From IMG/VR virus record IMGVR_UViG_3300036832_000913, positions 1 through 30,170 of that record: DNA of 30,170 bases. One strand, 5' to 3'. Position numbers and translations under genes: made by a program. Origin of the DNA: a virus. Shown one piece after another: positions 13,050-27,143 of the stretch. The notes under the pieces are model-generated. The model had not been told where the DNA came from and searched no databases. It worked only from the letters and a program-made list of their open reading frames with translations. The first letter of the stretch is position 1, and each line of letters opens with the position of its first letter.

Positions 13050-13436
13050 TCACCTATCGATTCTCCGGTACGGGAATCTAAGCCGCTCACGATATCCCGT
13101 AACACGTTGCGTTTGCGGATCTATGACTGGCACCGAGGTCACCGCATCGTTCAAGACACTTATCACCTCCGGCGGCACCTGCGCTTCAGCGCCCGCCATC
13201 AACAAGTACGGTTTGCCATTAGCCGAGATAAAGAGCCCGGTCGGCGGGATCGCGGCGTCTTCCTCCAGGACAACCTTGACCCGCAAAACGGTCTTCACTG
13301 GAGCCGGCACAGGTGGCGCAGGTGACGCCGGTGACACAGGTGGCGCCGGTGACGCAGGTGGCGCATCAGATAATTTAGACCGCGCATTACGCGCCGAGCT
13401 TACCAGCTCGTCATCCTCAGGAAGCATCGTGCTCAT
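13050..13436 (-). CDS. Conserved small phage protein with Pro/Ala linker (128 aa)
   Basis: Residues 25-47 are a Pro/Ala/Ser repeat (PPASPAPPVSPASPAPP). The C-terminal 75 residues (IPPTGLFISANGKPYLL, QVPPEVISVLNDAVTSVPV, YRERLRFPYRRI) form a block I recall from uncharacterised genes next to phage head and adaptor genes. The ATG overlaps the stop of the gene upstream (ATGA at 13436-13433), suggesting coupling. Function is unknown; virion or assembly role is inferred from position. Confidence 0.65.
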   Translation of the reverse strand: MSTMLPEDDELVSSARNARSKLSDAPPASPAPPVSPASPAPPVPAPVKTVLRVKVVLEEDAAIPPTGLFISANGKPYLLMAGAEAQVPPEVISVLNDAVTSVPVIDPQTQRVTGYRERLRFPYRRIDR

Positions 13437-13696
13437 TCGTCTTCATCCTCTTCATCGTCCTCTTTGATCGCCGCATCGAAACTACTCGCGTAGTCGTCCT
13501 TGCTCGGTGCAATCTTGTCGAGATTCTTGGTGAGAAACGCAACAACACCGGCCACATCATCAAAGACGTACTGTCGTTCCGGGTCCACATAGGGCTGAGG
13601 GCCACCGTCAGATTTACGGTTCTTGGCGACGATCGCCGGATCGTCCATGCATACAACATAACCATTTTCCGCCCGCTCGATGCGTATGCTGTTCAT
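13433..13696 (-). CDS. Conserved small acidic phage protein (87 aa)
   Basis: The protein starts MNSIRIERAENGYVVCMDDP, contains YVFDDVAGVVAFLTKNLD, and ends in an acidic run (KEDDEEDEDE). A purine-rich ribosome site (GGAAGGA) precedes the ATG at 13696. It overlaps the downstream gene by four bases and begins four bases after the repeat-protein stop. I associate this pattern with small genes in podovirus-like structural modules, but no function is known to me. Confidence 0.65.
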   Translation of the reverse strand: MNSIRIERAENGYVVCMDDPAIVAKNRKSDGGPQPYVDPERQYVFDDVAGVVAFLTKNLDKIAPSKDDYASSFDAAIKEDDEEDEDE

Positions 13697-13699
13697 CAG

Positions 13700-15004
13700 T
13701 CAAATCCTTCCCAGCGACCTTACCAAGCGTCGACTATAGCCACCAGACTGCGAGCCACTCCCCTGGAGCATCATACCGCTACGACGCCCATACAGCGAGA
13801 TGATCTGTTTAGGCAACGAAGCGCTGCCATATGCGGCGCCGACACCAGCCGCCGACCCATACGAGAGCGCAGTGTATGGCGGCTGTCCAAATGCGCGCCC
13901 GACGCCGTTAGCCTGCCCGAACGAAAAGTACTGTCCTGATGTCGAACTGATCGCAGCCGCATCACCAGTGCTGGGGGCCTGTCCAAAAAAGCCAATGCTG
14001 CCAGATACAACGCCTGCACCAGCAGATGCGCCAGCAGCCTGAGCAACCACACTACCGACAGCTGACGCTGCGCCGACCCCACCAGCTTGTGCGATAACAG
14101 CGCCAAAAGCTGCACCAATAGCATTTCCGACCCCGGCGCTCACGCCAACACTAGCGTTCAACGCCCCAGAGATAGCAGTCGCATCGCCACTCGACGTTGA
14201 GACGCCACTCCCCACCTCAGGAACAGCGGCAACGGCATTGCCACCACCAACCGCAGCACCCTGTGAGTCGATCTCAATAGCGTAGATCGCCGCAGCATCA
14301 CCAAAAGCCGACGCAAAACCAGCCGCGCCTGCCGCAGAGGCTGCACTGGCACCACCAGCACCTAATGCATGACCTGCCGCGTCTACCTCGACAAACGCTC
14401 GAGCTGCGCCATTGGCTGAGCCCGCTCCGGTAGATGTCGCAAAACCCGCCGATCCACGAATGCCGGTGGCACGAGCCGCCCCAACCCCCGCCGCTGCGCC
14501 CTTGACCTGTTTTGGCTTACCAGGTGCAGTGGCTGAACCTAACGCAACACCCGTACCCGTAGCATGGCCGACGCCAAACCGGATCCCGATCCCCCTCCCG
14601 GACGCCGCCCCCGTACCCGCAGCGACACCAATTGCATTTTTCGTGCTGAGTCCACTGCTAGACGCCGCACCTACCCCGGCGGCGTTAGCAACCCCCATAA
14701 CGGTTGCTATAGCCTGTCCCGACCCGAGACCAGCACCAGTCGCAACACCAACCGCTCCCGCCTGCGCAACCCCGACTCCAGATGCTGCGCCAACGCCCGC
14801 CGCTGCGGCGATCGCTGTTGCTACTGGAGCGCCAACAGCTGCAGCAGCACCAGTACCAGAAGCCACGCCAACATTGGCAGGCGCCGCCGTCTGAGACGCA
14901 GCACCAACACCAGATAGAATTTGGGTATGGCCTGACCCTGCATCAGCAACGACGGCCGATCCAAGTCCTGCACGCGCTGCGCTGAGCAACTGAGTGAGCG
15001 CCAT
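13700..15004 (-). CDS. Glycine/alanine-rich repeat protein (434 aa), likely virion-associated
   Basis: Almost the whole protein is built of Gly, Ala, Val, Ser and Thr in a degenerate alternating pattern such as GVGAASGVGVAQAGAVGVA and GVAAGTGAASGRG. Small residues recur every second position (A-x-G-x-G-x-A), which fits a solenoid, polyglycine-helix or silk-like packing. Three interruptions carry larger residues (KPKQVKG, FVEVDAAG, YAIEIDSQG). The last 50 residues change to IISLYGRRSGMMLQG and an Arg-rich tail RRLVRSLGRI, probably an anchoring or folding domain. It lies between two conserved small phage genes, so a fibre, spike or capsid decoration is plausible. I recognise no named family. 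The ribosome site is weak. Confidence 0.7.
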   Translation of the reverse strand: MALTQLLSAARAGLGSAVVADAGSGHTQILSGVGAASQTAAPANVGVASGTGAAAAVGAPVATAIAAAAGVGAASGVGVAQAGAVGVATGAGLGSGQAIATVMGVANAAGVGAASSSGLSTKNAIGVAAGTGAASGRGIGIRFGVGHATGTGVALGSATAPGKPKQVKGAAAGVGAARATGIRGSAGFATSTGAGSANGAARAFVEVDAAGHALGAGGASAASAAGAAGFASAFGDAAAIYAIEIDSQGAAVGGGNAVAAVPEVGSGVSTSSGDATAISGALNASVGVSAGVGNAIGAAFGAVIAQAGGVGAASAVGSVVAQAAGASAGAGVVSGSIGFFGQAPSTGDAAAISSTSGQYFSFGQANGVGRAFGQPPYTALSYGSAAGVGAAYGSASLPKQIISLYGRRSGMMLQGSGSQSGGYSRRLVRSLGRI

Positions 15005-15007
15005 AGC

Positions 15008-15442
15008 TCACACCCGCAGACGGGCCGCGTCCATTCGTGCTTTGATAATATCGGAATCAGTGACGCCGTCCGCGTAGCATCCCATCACCGCGTTCGACAT
15101 CGCCTTCTCGATCGCACGTGCCAATGGCTCGCTCGCTGCCGACATCGCTTTCACGGCGACACCCACAGCGTTCACGCTGTGTGGGTAGAGCCGCGCTGCC
15201 TTCGGCTTCATCCAATCCGGCAACCCAGACGGCAACCCACGCTCGCACAACCAAGCATGAGAGTAGCAACGCAGCTTGACCGGAATCGACCCAGCCTGCG
15301 TACGCGCGTAGTGCATCGTCGCCAGCGCTTCGTCGTTGTTCTTAGGCTGAGGTAGACGCGGCGATACGTGAAACCACAGATCGCAAATCCCGACAATATC
15401 GAGTTCAATCAGACATCGTCGGAATTCAGCCGCATGGTTCAT
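15008..15442 (-). CDS. Conserved uncharacterised phage protein (144 aa)
   Basis: The protein runs MNHAAEFRRCLIELDIVG, then LWFHVSPRLPQPKNNDEAL, ATMHYARTQAGSIPVKLR and RGLPSGLPDWMKPKAARLYP. This is a block I recall as a conserved gene downstream of the capsid in some phages and prophages. It appears mostly helical and cytoplasmic. I placed the start at ATG 15442, which overlaps the TGA of the upstream endonuclease (ATGA). A start at 15490 would only add residues read out of frame inside the endonuclease. Function is unknown. Confidence 0.65.
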   Translation of the reverse strand: MNHAAEFRRCLIELDIVGICDLWFHVSPRLPQPKNNDEALATMHYARTQAGSIPVKLRCYSHAWLCERGLPSGLPDWMKPKAARLYPHSVNAVGVAVKAMSAASEPLARAIEKAMSNAVMGCYADGVTDSDIIKARMDAARLRV

Positions 15443-16221
15443 GACAACGCCACGTGACCGATGTTCCTCGATCCACAATCGAGGCAGCACATGACGACGT
15501 GCTTACCATGCTTGCCTTGACGTAGCTCTAAGTTCTCTGGCGCGTTGTTGACTTTGTCGCCATCGATGTGATGTACGGTTTCCGATACTAGAAGCGGACG
15601 ACCAAGTTTGCGAGCGAGGACAAGGCGATGTTCTAGAACATGCGACCTAGTCCCGCGCATTGATACCATCGGATCATCGTCAGAAACCCAAGCATAAACA
15701 TAGCCTCTATGAGTAAATTTCCCACCACCCCAAGTCGGGCTACGTGGTCCTGGCCCATTCGGCCTAACAATCTCAGGGTGCTTATGAATCAGCTGCATAA
15801 CCGTTCCCTCACTCCTACCCGCTGCTACCGCGACCTCTTTGAAATTTAATCCGCTTTTATAAAGCTCAATCACCTTAAGTTTTTCCTCGTCAGTCATACG
15901 TGGCTTGGGGCCACGTATCTCAACTCCAGCCCTTGCAAGCGCATCCAGAATTGTAATTCGCGCACAGGAATATTTCGTAGCGAGATCAGCAGTCGAGCAC
16001 CCACCCTCATATTCTTCGATCAGCTTTCCTAGCGATTCCCCCTTAAATTTCAGAAGATGGCCACTACGAAATGCCCTTGTGTCCACACCTCTCTGAGCGA
16101 GAACTCGGTAGACAGTTCTGTCATTAAACCCAAGCTCCTTAGCAACCTTGTTTCCGTCTTTTAGCTCTACGTACAAGTCCACGATTCTCTGATCGAGATC
16201 ATCGCTCTTTCGATAAGCCAT
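15439..16221 (-). CDS. HNH homing endonuclease with helix-turn-helix repeats (260 aa)
   Basis: The N-terminal two thirds contains at least three helix-turn-helix-type repeats (IVDLYVELKDGNKVAKELG, LIEEYEGGCSTADLATKY, VIELYKSGLNFKEVAVAAG), as in DNA-binding parts of mobile endonucleases. The C-terminal part is an HNH nuclease with EHRLVLARKLGRP, VHHIDGD at 216-222 and NNAPENLEL, then a short CCLDCGS segment that may bind zinc. It should make site-specific breaks that copy its own gene. I chose ATG 16221 because AGAGG lies eight bases upstream; 16281 is an alternative. It sits between two small virion genes as a free-standing invader and ends in a four-base overlap with the next gene. Confidence 0.85.
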   Translation of the reverse strand: MAYRKSDDLDQRIVDLYVELKDGNKVAKELGFNDRTVYRVLAQRGVDTRAFRSGHLLKFKGESLGKLIEEYEGGCSTADLATKYSCARITILDALARAGVEIRGPKPRMTDEEKLKVIELYKSGLNFKEVAVAAGRSEGTVMQLIHKHPEIVRPNGPGPRSPTWGGGKFTHRGYVYAWVSDDDPMVSMRGTRSHVLEHRLVLARKLGRPLLVSETVHHIDGDKVNNAPENLELRQGKHGKHVVMCCLDCGSRNIGHVALS

Positions 16222-16319
16222 GCCCAATACCTCTAATGTTTTGCTACTACGCCAAACATTATAGGCAGAACTGGTAGCCATTACAAGACCACCGCTACTT
16301 CTAGCTAAGTTATTGATAT

Positions 16320-16757
16320 CTATGATAAAGTTATGGTCGTGGCGGTCGTCAACACCGGAGTCACCCCGCTACCACAACTTATGTTCGGAGTTACAGTTCC
16401 ACTCCAAAGTATCGCCGTCGCGCCACCCCCAGTCTTACCTGTGCTGAAATTGGTTACCGTCCCAGTGCCGCCAGTCCCCGCCGGGAAAGTGATGTTGGAT
16501 ACTGGTGAGCAATTCGCCGGCCCCGTCCCGCTGATTGTCCAGCCACCCGTCGTACGCGCCACACTGGCGCGCGCGTAGCTCGTATAGGCGACCTCGCTGG
16601 TCGACTGCGTGCCACTCGTACCCGGATCAGCCGTATGTAGAGCAACAGAAGTGTTTGTCTGCGGTGAGCTAGCTGCGTTGTCCGCATAATTCGCCCAAGC
16701 TGTCGCATTATAGACCAGCTGTAAGATTGCAGTCTCGGTCGTACCAGCAATAGCCAT
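16320..16757 (-). CDS. Small Thr/Gly-rich phage virion protein (145 aa)
   Basis: The segment VALHTADPGTSGTQSTSEVAYTSYAR is typical of a conserved phage structural protein (HTADPG...EV.YTSYAR) that is followed by Gly/Thr-rich beta structure. ATG at 16757 starts just after the upstream TGA at 16764-16762, with no clear ribosome site, so coupling to upstream translation is likely. A GTG at 16802 is in frame but lies within the upstream gene. Role unknown; structural by context. Confidence 0.6.
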   Translation of the reverse strand: MAIAGTTETAILQLVYNATAWANYADNAASSPQTNTSVALHTADPGTSGTQSTSEVAYTSYARASVARTTGGWTISGTGPANCSPVSNITFPAGTGGTGTVTNFSTGKTGGGATAILWSGTVTPNISCGSGVTPVLTTATTITLS

Positions 16758-16761
16758 TAGG

Positions 16762-17163
16762 TCAGCCCATGATATGGTAACAGATATTCTTGGCGTTGCC
16801 ACACAACCCGGTCGACAAGGTCACCGTGGAATTACCGGCCACGTCAGTGACCACCGTGATGGCGCTCGTGGTGTCGAGCACACCAGCAATCGTCCCCAAT
16901 GTTACCTTGACGCTGTTACTGGCCGGCATACCCCATTGCCAATGCCACATCAGTGCGCCAGTAACGTCCATGATATCGACCTGCAACGCCTGAAAGCCGA
17001 CGTTAATCTGCACCGCGTTACCAGTCGACGAGGTAAAAAACCCGTAGACGTCGCACGCCTCACCACCAGAGTTCACGCAGTTGCCGATCAGGTTCCCTGG
17101 CCCGGTGTAGCCCGACGGAAACGCAGCGAGATGCAGTGAAGTGTCGACTACTTGTGTCGGCAT
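16762..17163 (-). CDS. Small virion-type protein (133 aa), unknown
   Basis: Starts MPTQVVDTSLHLAAFPSGYT and contains FQALQVDIMDVTGALMWHWQ, then a beta-rich Thr/Val C-terminus. A good site (AGGAG, six bases before ATG) fixes the start. It lies between the Ig-like protein and the HTADPG-type gene, all leftward with small gaps. I do not recognise a family; a decoration or tail-related part fits the location. Confidence 0.55.
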   Translation of the reverse strand: MPTQVVDTSLHLAAFPSGYTGPGNLIGNCVNSGGEACDVYGFFTSSTGNAVQINVGFQALQVDIMDVTGALMWHWQWGMPASNSVKVTLGTIAGVLDTTSAITVVTDVAGNSTVTLSTGLCGNAKNICYHIMG

Positions 17164-17172
17164 GGGAGACTC

Positions 17173-17841
17173 CTACGAGTGCTGTGCTGATTTCGCCTTG
17201 TCCTCGTCCCGTGGCTGCGGCTGCGGCGAAGGCTGAGACAAGGTCTGTGCAGGTGGAACGGTCTGCACATGCGGAAGCGGCGGAGCCGGCGCAGGCACAG
17301 GCACAGGCAAAATCTGTCCAGACGGAGCCGCCCTACGTCTACCCTCGTCTGTCGCAGGCCGAACCGAAAGCTCGATCTTACCCTCGGCTGGCGCACCCTT
17401 CGCGATCACCATCACCTCAATAGACGCCTGCGTCGAACCAACGTCGCCATGCGCGTCCACCTTGATAGACGCAAGCCCAGGCCCGTACGCGAATATTTTA
17501 GCGCTCGTCGGATCTTTCTCGTCCGCCGTCACTGTCACAGGACCAGTCGCAGACCACTCGGCAGTCGTCAGTTTCACATCGCCACCGAATGCATCCTTGA
17601 ATTGCGCCTTGACAGTCCCCTCCCCACCCAGCTCCATCTGCTGACGAGGGGCCACATCTCTGGACACTTGTGCTTGCTTGAGCTGGCTCTCGTACTGCTC
17701 AGGTGTAATGCTGATCATATACTGCGCATTTGCAGGATTAGCTCTCTGCGGGACATCTCTGGGCTGCCCGGGCTGCGTAGGTTGCCCTGGGTGTGTAGGT
17801 TGCGCCGGGTGCGTAGGTTGTGCAGGATGCTGATTGGCCAC
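17173..17841 (-). CDS. Ig-like virion protein near capsid, Pro-rich tails (222 aa)
   Basis: The first 30 residues are six-residue repeats of the type HPAQPT/HPGQPT. A central beta domain at about 60-150 (GTVKAQFKDAFGGDVKLTTAEW, VTVTADEKDPTSAKIFAYG, ASIKVDAHGDVGSTQASIEV) has the look of a bacterial Ig-like (Big) domain. A Pro/Gln C-terminal tail follows. Such domains decorate phage capsids and aid attachment to surfaces. The gene is the first phage-type gene after the major capsid gene once the intervening endonuclease is removed. GTG at 17841 is preceded by GAGG nine bases upstream. Confidence 0.65.
   Translation of the reverse strand: MANQHPAQPTHPAQPTHPGQPTQPGQPRDVPQRANPANAQYMISITPEQYESQLKQAQVSRDVAPRQQMELGGEGTVKAQFKDAFGGDVKLTTAEWSATGPVTVTADEKDPTSAKIFAYGPGLASIKVDAHGDVGSTQASIEVMVIAKGAPAEGKIELSVRPATDEGRRRAAPSGQILPVPVPAPAPPLPHVQTVPPAQTLSQPSPQPQPRDEDKAKSAQHS
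17772..17830. repeat. 18-bp tandem repeat at the start of the Ig-like gene
   Basis: About three copies of a TGCGTAGGTTGCGCCGGG-type unit lie in frame and encode HPAQPT/HPGQPT. Copies differ at a few bases. Copy number may vary without a frameshift. Confidence 0.75.
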
Positions 17842-17854
17842 TTGAAGCTACCTC

Positions 17855-18358
17855 TCAGGTTCTCGCGAAATCGCCGTGATGCTCGGCTGCTGCCTTTACA
17901 TAAGCTGCATGCGCCTCTTGCGCGGTCTTGAAGCTACCCAGATAAATCCGCTTTCCGTCTACACCGATCTGCGCCACGTAGTACCCACACCGATTACCAT
18001 GCGCCGATCGCTGAAACCTTACACCCTTGAAGCCTGTGCTACTATCCTCACGCACCGTGCGGTTTCGTTGATTCTCCGGTCGAGTGGCTTTACGAAGATT
18101 GCTCCAACGGTTGTTCTTCGTATTGTGGTCGATATGATCAACCTCGCCTGACGGCCACTCTCCAGTCATCCACAAGAACGCCAGCCTGGATGCATGGTAG
18201 TTTGCCCCGTCGATCCTAATCTTGCGGTGCCCATTATCAAAGTACCCTGCCGTATCGCCAACTCTTACCCGCGTACGTTTCACCCGCCAGGTGAACTGCC
18301 CAGTCTCCAAATCATAATCCAACACCTCACGCACACGGTCAGCGTGTAACCCCGACAT
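17855..18358 (-). CDS. HNH-AP2 homing endonuclease (167 aa)
   Basis: An HNH_3-type core at about 57-88 has SRLAFLWMTGEWP, VDHIDHN at 73-79 and NRWSNL. An AP2 DNA-binding domain follows at about 108-155 (TGFKGVRFQ, YVAQIGVDGKRIYLGSF, EAHAAYVKAA). The protein should cut a specific DNA site to spread its own gene. It stands alone between the capsid gene and the Ig-like gene, and is a paralogue of the gene at 19514-20023 with the same domain order. The ATG has a GGGGA-type site upstream. No key HNH residue appears missing. Confidence 0.9.
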   Translation of the reverse strand: MSGLHADRVREVLDYDLETGQFTWRVKRTRVRVGDTAGYFDNGHRKIRIDGANYHASRLAFLWMTGEWPSGEVDHIDHNTKNNRWSNLRKATRPENQRNRTVREDSSTGFKGVRFQRSAHGNRCGYYVAQIGVDGKRIYLGSFKTAQEAHAAYVKAAAEHHGDFART

Positions 18359-19513: not shown

Positions 19514-20023
19514 TTAGGTTGCGCAAACGAACTCCGCATGCAGTCGTTCGGCCGCGCGCCTATACGTCATGCTGGCTTCTTCAGGATCGTCAAAAAATCC
19601 AAGGTGCTTGTACCGGCGTTGATAACCAATCTTAGCTTGCCACTTCTGCCGCTGCGTATTCCAGAACACGCCCTTAAATCCTGATTTGTTATTACTCTGC
19701 TTCGTCCGATTGTACTGATTCTGCGATCTTGTGCAGACCCACAAGTTGCTCCACCGGTCGTTCGCCCGGTTACGGTCAATATGATCGACGAACTCAGGCA
19801 TCTCCCCAGTCACCCACAATACAGCAAGTCGCGAACACCGGTACATCTTATCGAACAACCTAATCTTGTAATAACCATCAGGATGCAGGCACCCTGCCCG
19901 TCGTCCCTTCATCACCTTGCCCCGATCCCGTGACCTATTCCACGTGAAATATCCGGTCTCTGAATCATACGCCAACCACTCTTGCAACGTCCTCTGGTCA
20001 AGCGTTACCTGTTCATCAGCCAT
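19514..20023 (-). CDS. HNH-AP2 homing endonuclease (169 aa)
   Basis: The HNH core is at about 64-94: SRLAVLWVTGEMP, VDHIDRN at 79-85, NDRWSNL. An AP2 DNA-binding domain at about 114-163 follows (SGFKGVFWN, WQAKIGYQRRYKHLGFF, EEASMTYRRAA). It lies between the scaffold-like gene and the capsid gene, so it interrupts a gene pair normally kept together. GAGGGA upstream of the ATG supports the start. It shares domain order and the SRLA-LW-TGE block with the gene at 17855-18358, indicating common ancestry. Confidence 0.9.
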   Translation of the reverse strand: MADEQVTLDQRTLQEWLAYDSETGYFTWNRSRDRGKVMKGRRAGCLHPDGYYKIRLFDKMYRCSRLAVLWVTGEMPEFVDHIDRNRANDRWSNLWVCTRSQNQYNRTKQSNNKSGFKGVFWNTQRQKWQAKIGYQRRYKHLGFFDDPEEASMTYRRAAERLHAEFVCAT

Positions 20024-26015: not shown

Positions 26016-27143
26016 TTATCTTGCGCGCCTAGCGGAAATATAGCCCGTAGCCGTCGTCGCCGGCCCGAGCGCTACCAGGTAAACGGTCGTGCTCACGCTC
26101 ACGTTGAAGCGGACAAGGCTGGTGTTGAAGTTCTGCTGAGCCTTGCCGAAGGTCAAGGACATGTCTGTCAAGGTCCCAGCGCCAGCGGCGAGCTGAGCCG
26201 GCGTAGGCAAAGTGGCGCTGGTGTTGCCGATCGCCACTGCATAGCGGGTCCCGGCTGTTCCAGGGGCAACGAAGTTGACGTTCCCAGCGACCACCCAGTC
26301 CCCAGGGGTGAGGGTGAGGCTACCAATGTTGGCTGGCGTGCTCGCAGTCAGATTCACCGCGGTCGTGATCGAGGTGCTCAGCACCTCGCCGACGTTACCT
26401 TGAACCGCCTGGTCGGCTACCGTGGTGCCTTTGATGGGCATGCGGCTCAAGTCGGTAGGATGCACGTGGTCGCCACGCGACCATGACGCAGCTACGCCAG
26501 GTGCGGCGGCACCATCCATAGATGGGGTGGTGCTCGAGCCCGCTGGCACGGCGGGCGGAGCCGGCACGAATATTAAGGAGTCGGTGCCCAATGCGGCAGC
26601 ATTGCCGGCATTGGCGGAGACCGCGGTCGGACCCGGGATACCTTGAATGCCCTGTGCGCCGGCAGGTCCCTGAACGCCTTGTGCGCCGGCAGGTCCTGTT
26701 GGACCCTGCGCGCCGGCAGGTCCTGTTGGACCCGCCACGCCGGGCGTGCCTTGCGGTCCCACGGGTCCAGCCGGTCCTTGTGGTCCCGCAGGGCCATCCG
26801 CTCCTGCGGGGCCTACCGGACCTTGTGAGCCAGGTGGGGGGACCAGGGACCAGGCGGCGTCCTGGCGTCCGTAAAGGGTTCCGTCTACTGGCGCTTCGGG
26901 GATGCCGCCACCGCCGCTGCCACTGGCGGTGACGTTCGAAAAAATCCAGCGGGTTCTCTCGCGCATCGGGTCCGGGTAGACGGACACCAGCTGCCAGCCA
27001 TCCTGGCCCACGACGCCCAGCATCGCCTCGGCAATGGTGGGATCGCCGGGGTTCCACGGGTGGTCGACCACCTTGTACTGGACGGGACTGCCGACTGCGG
27101 TGTCTCTTGCGCTTGGTGGATCAGGCTTGTCGGGCTCGACCAC
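26016..27143 (-). CDS. Collagen-like tail fibre or appendage protein (375 aa)
   Basis: A globular N-terminus (about 1-75, including [19 protein letters not shown]) may attach to the virion. Residues about 104-172 are Gly-x-y collagen repeats ([19 protein letters not shown]). Next come GDHVHPTD, a motif common in phage fibres, near 222-229, and a beta-rich C-terminal head ([19 protein letters not shown]). Collagen-like stems trimerise in phage fibres. GTG at 27143 is preceded by GGAG eight bases upstream. Unusually it lies upstream of the terminase, far from the fibre genes at 1-2700, between the small membrane protein and packaging genes. Confidence 0.82.
26630..26835. repeat. Collagen-type Gly-x-y coding repeat
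   Basis: The DNA contains repeated units such as GCGCCGGCAGGTCCTGTTGG and close variants with multiples of nine bases. They encode Gly-Pro-Ala-Gly-Ala-Gln blocks. In-frame expansion or contraction is expected. Confidence 0.8.

Follow-up and report, generated by a model that had tools for sequence, protein, structure and literature searches.

The gene at 13700..15004 (minus strand) of the window, by which we mean the whole 30,170-nucleotide stretch of viral DNA analysed here (IMG/VR record IMGVR_UViG_3300036832_000913), probably encodes the thread, or rope, of a chain-like neck or tail fibre of a soil phage, with the gp80-type protein encoded at 16320..16757 providing the beads. The gene begins with ATG, and its 434-residue product, referred to below as the GA protein, consists to 59 % of alanine, glycine and serine (A 26.3, G 21.2, S 11.3 %), with a further 9.2 % valine. 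The initial annotation had described a glycine/alanine repeat protein with few charged residues, and both points hold: D+E+K+R amount to 6.2 % of the protein overall and 4.9 % across residues 30-395, and the repeats lie far above chance and are stronger than that description conveyed.

The repeat-period analysis proposed in the initial annotation was carried out as a BLOSUM autocorrelation and revealed a strong even-lag periodicity, with peaks at lags 6, 18, 20 and 26 (z 5.0-6.0, against a 99.9 % quantile of 4.0 for the maximum in shuffled sequences). Only even lags are high, and the even-minus-odd lag contrast reaches 5.3, whereas it never exceeds 1.2 in 2000 shuffles or 0.9 in any other protein of the window. 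The small-residue alternation reported from the first reading is thus present as a two-residue pattern, but it is more than a vague tendency, being built into a repeat unit of about 18-20 residues. Such regularity would be given by alternating beta segments that present one face of small residues. A polyglycine-II helix requires glycine at every third residue, and the polyglycine helix suggested earlier is not supported because a glycine period of 3 is absent: lag 3 falls below chance, and enrichment is confined to even spacings.

Splitting the GA protein at the anchor [AST]xGxG yields about 19 units, which are 18-23 residues long and in most cases exactly 18 or 20, with boundaries inside the longer pieces parsed by hand. 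These units, with their even-lag, beta-like alternation, occupy residues 30-396 (13817..14917, minus strand) between two caps. The N-terminal cap, residues 1-29 (14918..15004, minus strand), is of the TQLLSAARAGLGSAVVADAGSGHTQ type, and the C-terminal cap, residues 397-434 (13700..13816, minus strand), carries the conserved motif LYGRRSGMxLQGS, which is the only widely kept part of the tail. The terminal arginine-rich domain described earlier amounts to just this tail of about 38 residues; its RRLVRSG end is optional, and in the window protein the tail ends in RRLVRSLGRI. The tryptic pieces of the protein include two of 111 and 168 residues. Antisense open reading frames across the gene, such as 14412-14894 on the plus strand, are taken as by-products because the homologues conserve the minus-strand frame, as judged from dN/dS.

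The absence of a recognisable family, also noted in the initial annotation, was borne out: the GA protein has no match in Pfam, PHROGs, the phages of INPHARED or the PDB, where weak matches to a T6SS lipase effector (E 0.09) and a putative pectinase (E 0.88) were judged to be chance, and a single-sequence scan of IMG/VR found nothing. Homologues were reached only by a detour through the capsid gene, using the major capsid protein of the window to obtain 80 related contigs. In most contigs with a capsid identity of at least 91 % a GA protein sits in the same slot, with 47-55 % identity to that of the window. Complete sister genes encode 359-590 residues and vary in repeat number, and their N-terminal ends differ, being of the RAGLGS type, made of TQVxxEQW repeats or, in the sister L017, replaced by an additional domain whose SPRY match stays below the threshold. 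The alignment nevertheless contains 50 invariant columns, and dN/dS between sisters is 0.2-0.3, with dS near saturation in pairs that include the window and 0.5-1.0 in the closest sisters. This is the mark of purifying selection, and the GA protein is therefore a maintained protein. In one sister phage (L002:12128-15226) a 1032-residue open reading frame is inserted next to the GA gene, between it and the homologue of the window gene g15008.

The bead gene lies three places upstream of the GA gene, at 16320..16757 on the minus strand, and its 145-residue product is identified as a gp80-type fibre bead by domain, fold and profile alike. It matches Pfam PF23140 (Podophage GP4 fiber I protein gp80) with 36.8 bits against a cut-off of 27, and its AlphaFold2 model (pLDDT 90) finds as top match 8jou_a, 'Fiber I and fiber-tail-adaptor of phage GP4', with a Foldseek E of 2.7e-4 and prob 1.00, and in VIA a Z of 10.2 at an rmsd of 3.6 over 119 residues; the profile of the bead family matches 8jou_a by sequence as well (E 2e-26). 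The longest reading frame starts from a GTG at 16802, but homology begins at the internal ATG at 16757, and so that ATG is probably the real start. Between the bead and GA genes lie g15008 (15008..15490, minus strand), with homology from about residue 17, and an HNH endonuclease gene (15439..16281, minus strand) that sits between the bead gene and g15008, is inserted in the cassette and is no part of the fibre; it is shared only with the sisters L003 and L009. It is one of three HNH endonuclease genes in the structural block, the others being at 17855-18358 and 19514-20023. Elsewhere in the window, the protein encoded at 17173-17841 (minus strand) has an N-terminal repeat rich in Pro, His and Gln (QPTHPAQPTHPGQP) and is beta-rich in its central part; it varies strongly among sisters (37-57 %, with L002 at 88 %) next to a capsid protein that is 91-95 % identical. 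Outside the late structural block 26016-27143 (minus strand) encodes a collagen-like protein (PF01391, E 4e-12).

Comparison of the clade loci across the interval bounded by g16762 and g13433 shows that the bead gene, g15008 and the GA gene are inherited together: all three are present in 13 loci, all three are absent from 35, and a single locus, L015, holds a remnant. All 17 loci in which a GA relative is detectable by sequence also encode the bead and g15008. Of 159 bead loci, 48 contain a relative of g15008, and the only bead-free loci to contain one are the window excerpt and L015. This co-inheritance makes g15008 a candidate for the anchor of the fibre. The remnant is a natural case of co-loss. 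In L015 the bead gene is absent and g15008 is shortened, and the place of the GA gene is taken by a 63-residue reading frame (L015:11147-11338; MSGAQALSASRAGLGSVIVTDPGSGRTQLISNVGAVTSSPSPILAVMSLYGRPSGMRLQGSAS) in which the N-cap is joined directly to the C-cap with zero repeats; loss of the bead was thus accompanied by loss of the repeats. A collapsed assembly is an unlikely cause because the losses fall at three separate places, namely the bead gene, the end of g15008 and the GA repeats, with the frames still open. The neighbour that the initial annotation had singled out as informative, the gene at 13433-13696, was rejected as a partner, since members of the clade retain it whether or not they carry the GA gene; the useful neighbour is the bead gene.

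The same association extends to otherwise unrelated phages. Bead relatives were gathered from IMG/VR, GTDB genomes and phage records, and a reading frame was counted as repetitive at a repeat z of at least 5 and an even-odd contrast of at least 1, a threshold of our own choosing under which the weak-repeat proteins in the thread slot of Itty13, Lacusarx and RXM score too low. By this rule an even-lag repeat frame is found in 46 of 76 non-redundant bead loci, with none detectable in the other 30, whereas the 44 bead-free loci of the window clade have none (Fisher 4e-13). Because that control represents one phage clade, a second, mixed set of 59 loci collected via HNH and portal genes was added, and it gave one trivial match and no bead. 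Within bead loci the repeat frames are concentrated on one side: 41 of the 264 reading frames less than 3 kb downstream are repetitive, versus 1 of 273 upstream (p 1e-12). The best lag is even in all 46 repeat frames, and 20 or 40 in 41 of them; background frames split into 243 even and 215 odd. The consensus of 40 repeat families, AAVGSAAGTSTATAVGAATA, has glycine at positions 4, 8 and 16; almost every even position is occupied by a small residue, and the larger V, I, L, T and R stand mainly at the odd positions 3, 15, 17 and 19. Dozens of phages that are otherwise unrelated thus encode proteins of this rhythm beside the bead gene, and these are listed in no family database. Period-20, even-lag frames rich in Gly, Ala, Ser and Thr lie next to a gp80-type bead in Mae-JY04 (L084:6448-8325) and MW202711 (L082:8924-9901), as well as in IMG/VR loci such as L114, L115, L144 and L164; they resemble the GA gene in this respect, but they are unnamed in databases, their unit is 20 rather than a mixture of 18 and 20, and their end domains are different.

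Bead, putative thread and adaptor also recur in a common order. In POI1126, BcepIL02, Mae-JY04, Lacusarx and further phages, a repeat gene with no other assignment is located between the bead gene and that of a gp77-type adaptor. A repeat gene has this position in the wider-family loci L119 and L121 too, where the order is bead, a member of the window's own g15008 family, a 1000-residue repeat protein and gp77. At their ends, the thread-slot proteins of L119, L123, L086, L089, L097 and L103 carry short repeats of the ExR type, such as VPAEPRSISLP and LPAEARRRAI, which the window protein lacks and which are possibly an adaptor-binding end. In BcepIL02, a Lessievirus, the thread-slot protein gp56 has 11 units of about 20 residues. 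Burkholderia phage DC1 has in the place of the bead a protein (gp53; L232:1717-2136) that is similar to the BcepIL02 bead gp55 and is annotated 'major capsid protein', a label that is a probable misannotation.

Fibre I of Ralstonia phage GP4 is among the closest known systems. In this fibre an elongated rope protein reportedly joins five dimers of gp80. The deposited unit, 8JOU, holds 10 gp80 and 3 gp77 chains. The window resembles this system in its bead, which is gp80-type by Pfam, profile and fold, and in the long repetitive chain of about 19 units encoded close by, where an extended bead-linking chain would be expected; in relatives of GP4 itself, repeat genes lie between bead and gp77. 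The window clade differs in its GA-rich units of 18-20 residues, numbering about 19, and in having no detected gp77-type adaptor: in the window neither Pfam nor a custom gp77 HMM finds one, the HMM being run on 12 proteins from g11062 to the major capsid protein, and this HMM has no match in the 17 loci with GA relatives, although gp77 is present in L119 and L121. We therefore do not claim membership of the GP4 system but propose that the GA protein works like the GP4 rope. No PDB sequence matches the thread proteins, and 8JOU has no match to the Lessievirus thread profile, so that no sequence homology to a solved rope was found. The 11 units of BcepIL02 gp56 set against the 10 gp80 copies of the deposited GP4 unit would fit a ratio of roughly one repeat to one bead. 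On that ratio each thread of the window phage would bear some 19 beads.

Other fibres share parts of this design. The bead model also matches 9c39_K with a Z of 10.2, the relative in Sf14 of Sf17 gp131. In the neck whiskers of Sf14 and Bas63 (PDB 9C39, 9MT4) a protein of bead-type fold (gp31) is likewise accompanied by a second chain, gp30, which 'threads through' the whiskers of Sf14 (PMC11821841), but gp30 is a non-repetitive protein of 166 residues and the whisker is short rather than a long chain. Reading by eye of Sf17 gp132, the orthologue of Sf14 gp30, revealed no GA repeats. Anabaena phage A-1(L) carries five bead-chain fibres, gp82-gp81-gp80, on a 15-fold neck ring; these are similar as chains of beads, but they are built from an anchor, numerous trimeric beads and a protein at the tip, and no thread is described (PMC10966104).

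How the GA protein would fold bears on each of the other readings. AlphaFold2, run with 11 homologues, gave a pLDDT of 34.5, a pTM of 0.26 and no residue above 50, and so does not support with any confidence the solenoid put forward in the initial annotation; the extended fibre proposed there, in the virion block, fits with a cassette that includes a gp80-type bead, but the folds proposed for it are unsupported, and none of the results points to the ice, cellulose or host binding also suggested. A poor model of this kind does not prove that a solenoid is absent, and it would fit plain disorder as well as a thread. A chain predicted as unfolded that yet keeps a strict register looks as a thread held by beads should. 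An unlikely alternative is that the protein is a separate fibre or adhesin, a free beta-solenoid or a trimeric fibre that shares the cassette of the bead without touching it. Fibre genes often move as cassettes, a period of 18-20 residues is also typical of beta-solenoids, and related slot proteins bear lectin-like domains, as with Laminin_G_3 in L147. Against this stand the lack of a confident fold and the history of L015, which lost bead and repeats only and kept the caps; taken with the association across unrelated phages, this co-loss calls for a tighter link than joint mobility. The lectin-like domains of some thread-slot proteins, for which the window protein has no counterpart, suggest that one end of the thread is the fibre tip.

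It seems quite improbable that the GA protein serves, with no defined partner, as a linker or surface coat of disordered, low-complexity sequence. The uniformly low pLDDT and the variable length among sisters would suit such a protein, but the strict 18/20 even-lag register, the invariant columns and the dN/dS are unlike those of free linkers, and the repeats were lost along with the bead. We consider it very improbable that the protein acts outside the virion, for instance as an assembly factor or chaperone of bead polymerisation that leaves before maturation. This reading draws on Burkholderia phage JC1, in whose virions mass spectrometry found the bead gp53 and the adaptor gp55 but not the thread-slot protein gp54 (PMC9144972), a result that counts against a thread, although long tryptic pieces and a low copy number may explain it. 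The BcepIL02 homologue, on the other hand, is annotated as virion-associated, and a few long GA-rich chains with scarce tryptic sites are easily missed.

The thread of a bead-chain fibre thus stays our preferred reading of the GA protein. In such a fibre the repeats would be short alternating beta segments that are not stably folded alone, and a bead or bead dimer would hold each repeat or pair of repeats. The fibre would be a string of beads whose length is set by the number of repeats; one of the conserved end caps would attach it to the neck, and the second would carry or form the tip. A broader proposal, which we put forward only tentatively, is that many kinds of phage may share an unannotated class of threads marked not by homology but by a GA code in even register with a period of 20 residues (here 18/20), with one unit per bead, so that repeat number would act as a genetic ruler of fibre length and change by gain or loss of repeats. 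Few phages have so far had their bead-chain fibres resolved. Should the period-20 GA proteins encoded beside gp80-type genes indeed be threads, fibres of this type would be far commoner than the available structures suggest, dozens of 'hypothetical' genes would gain a testable role, and fibre length would become predictable from repeat number.
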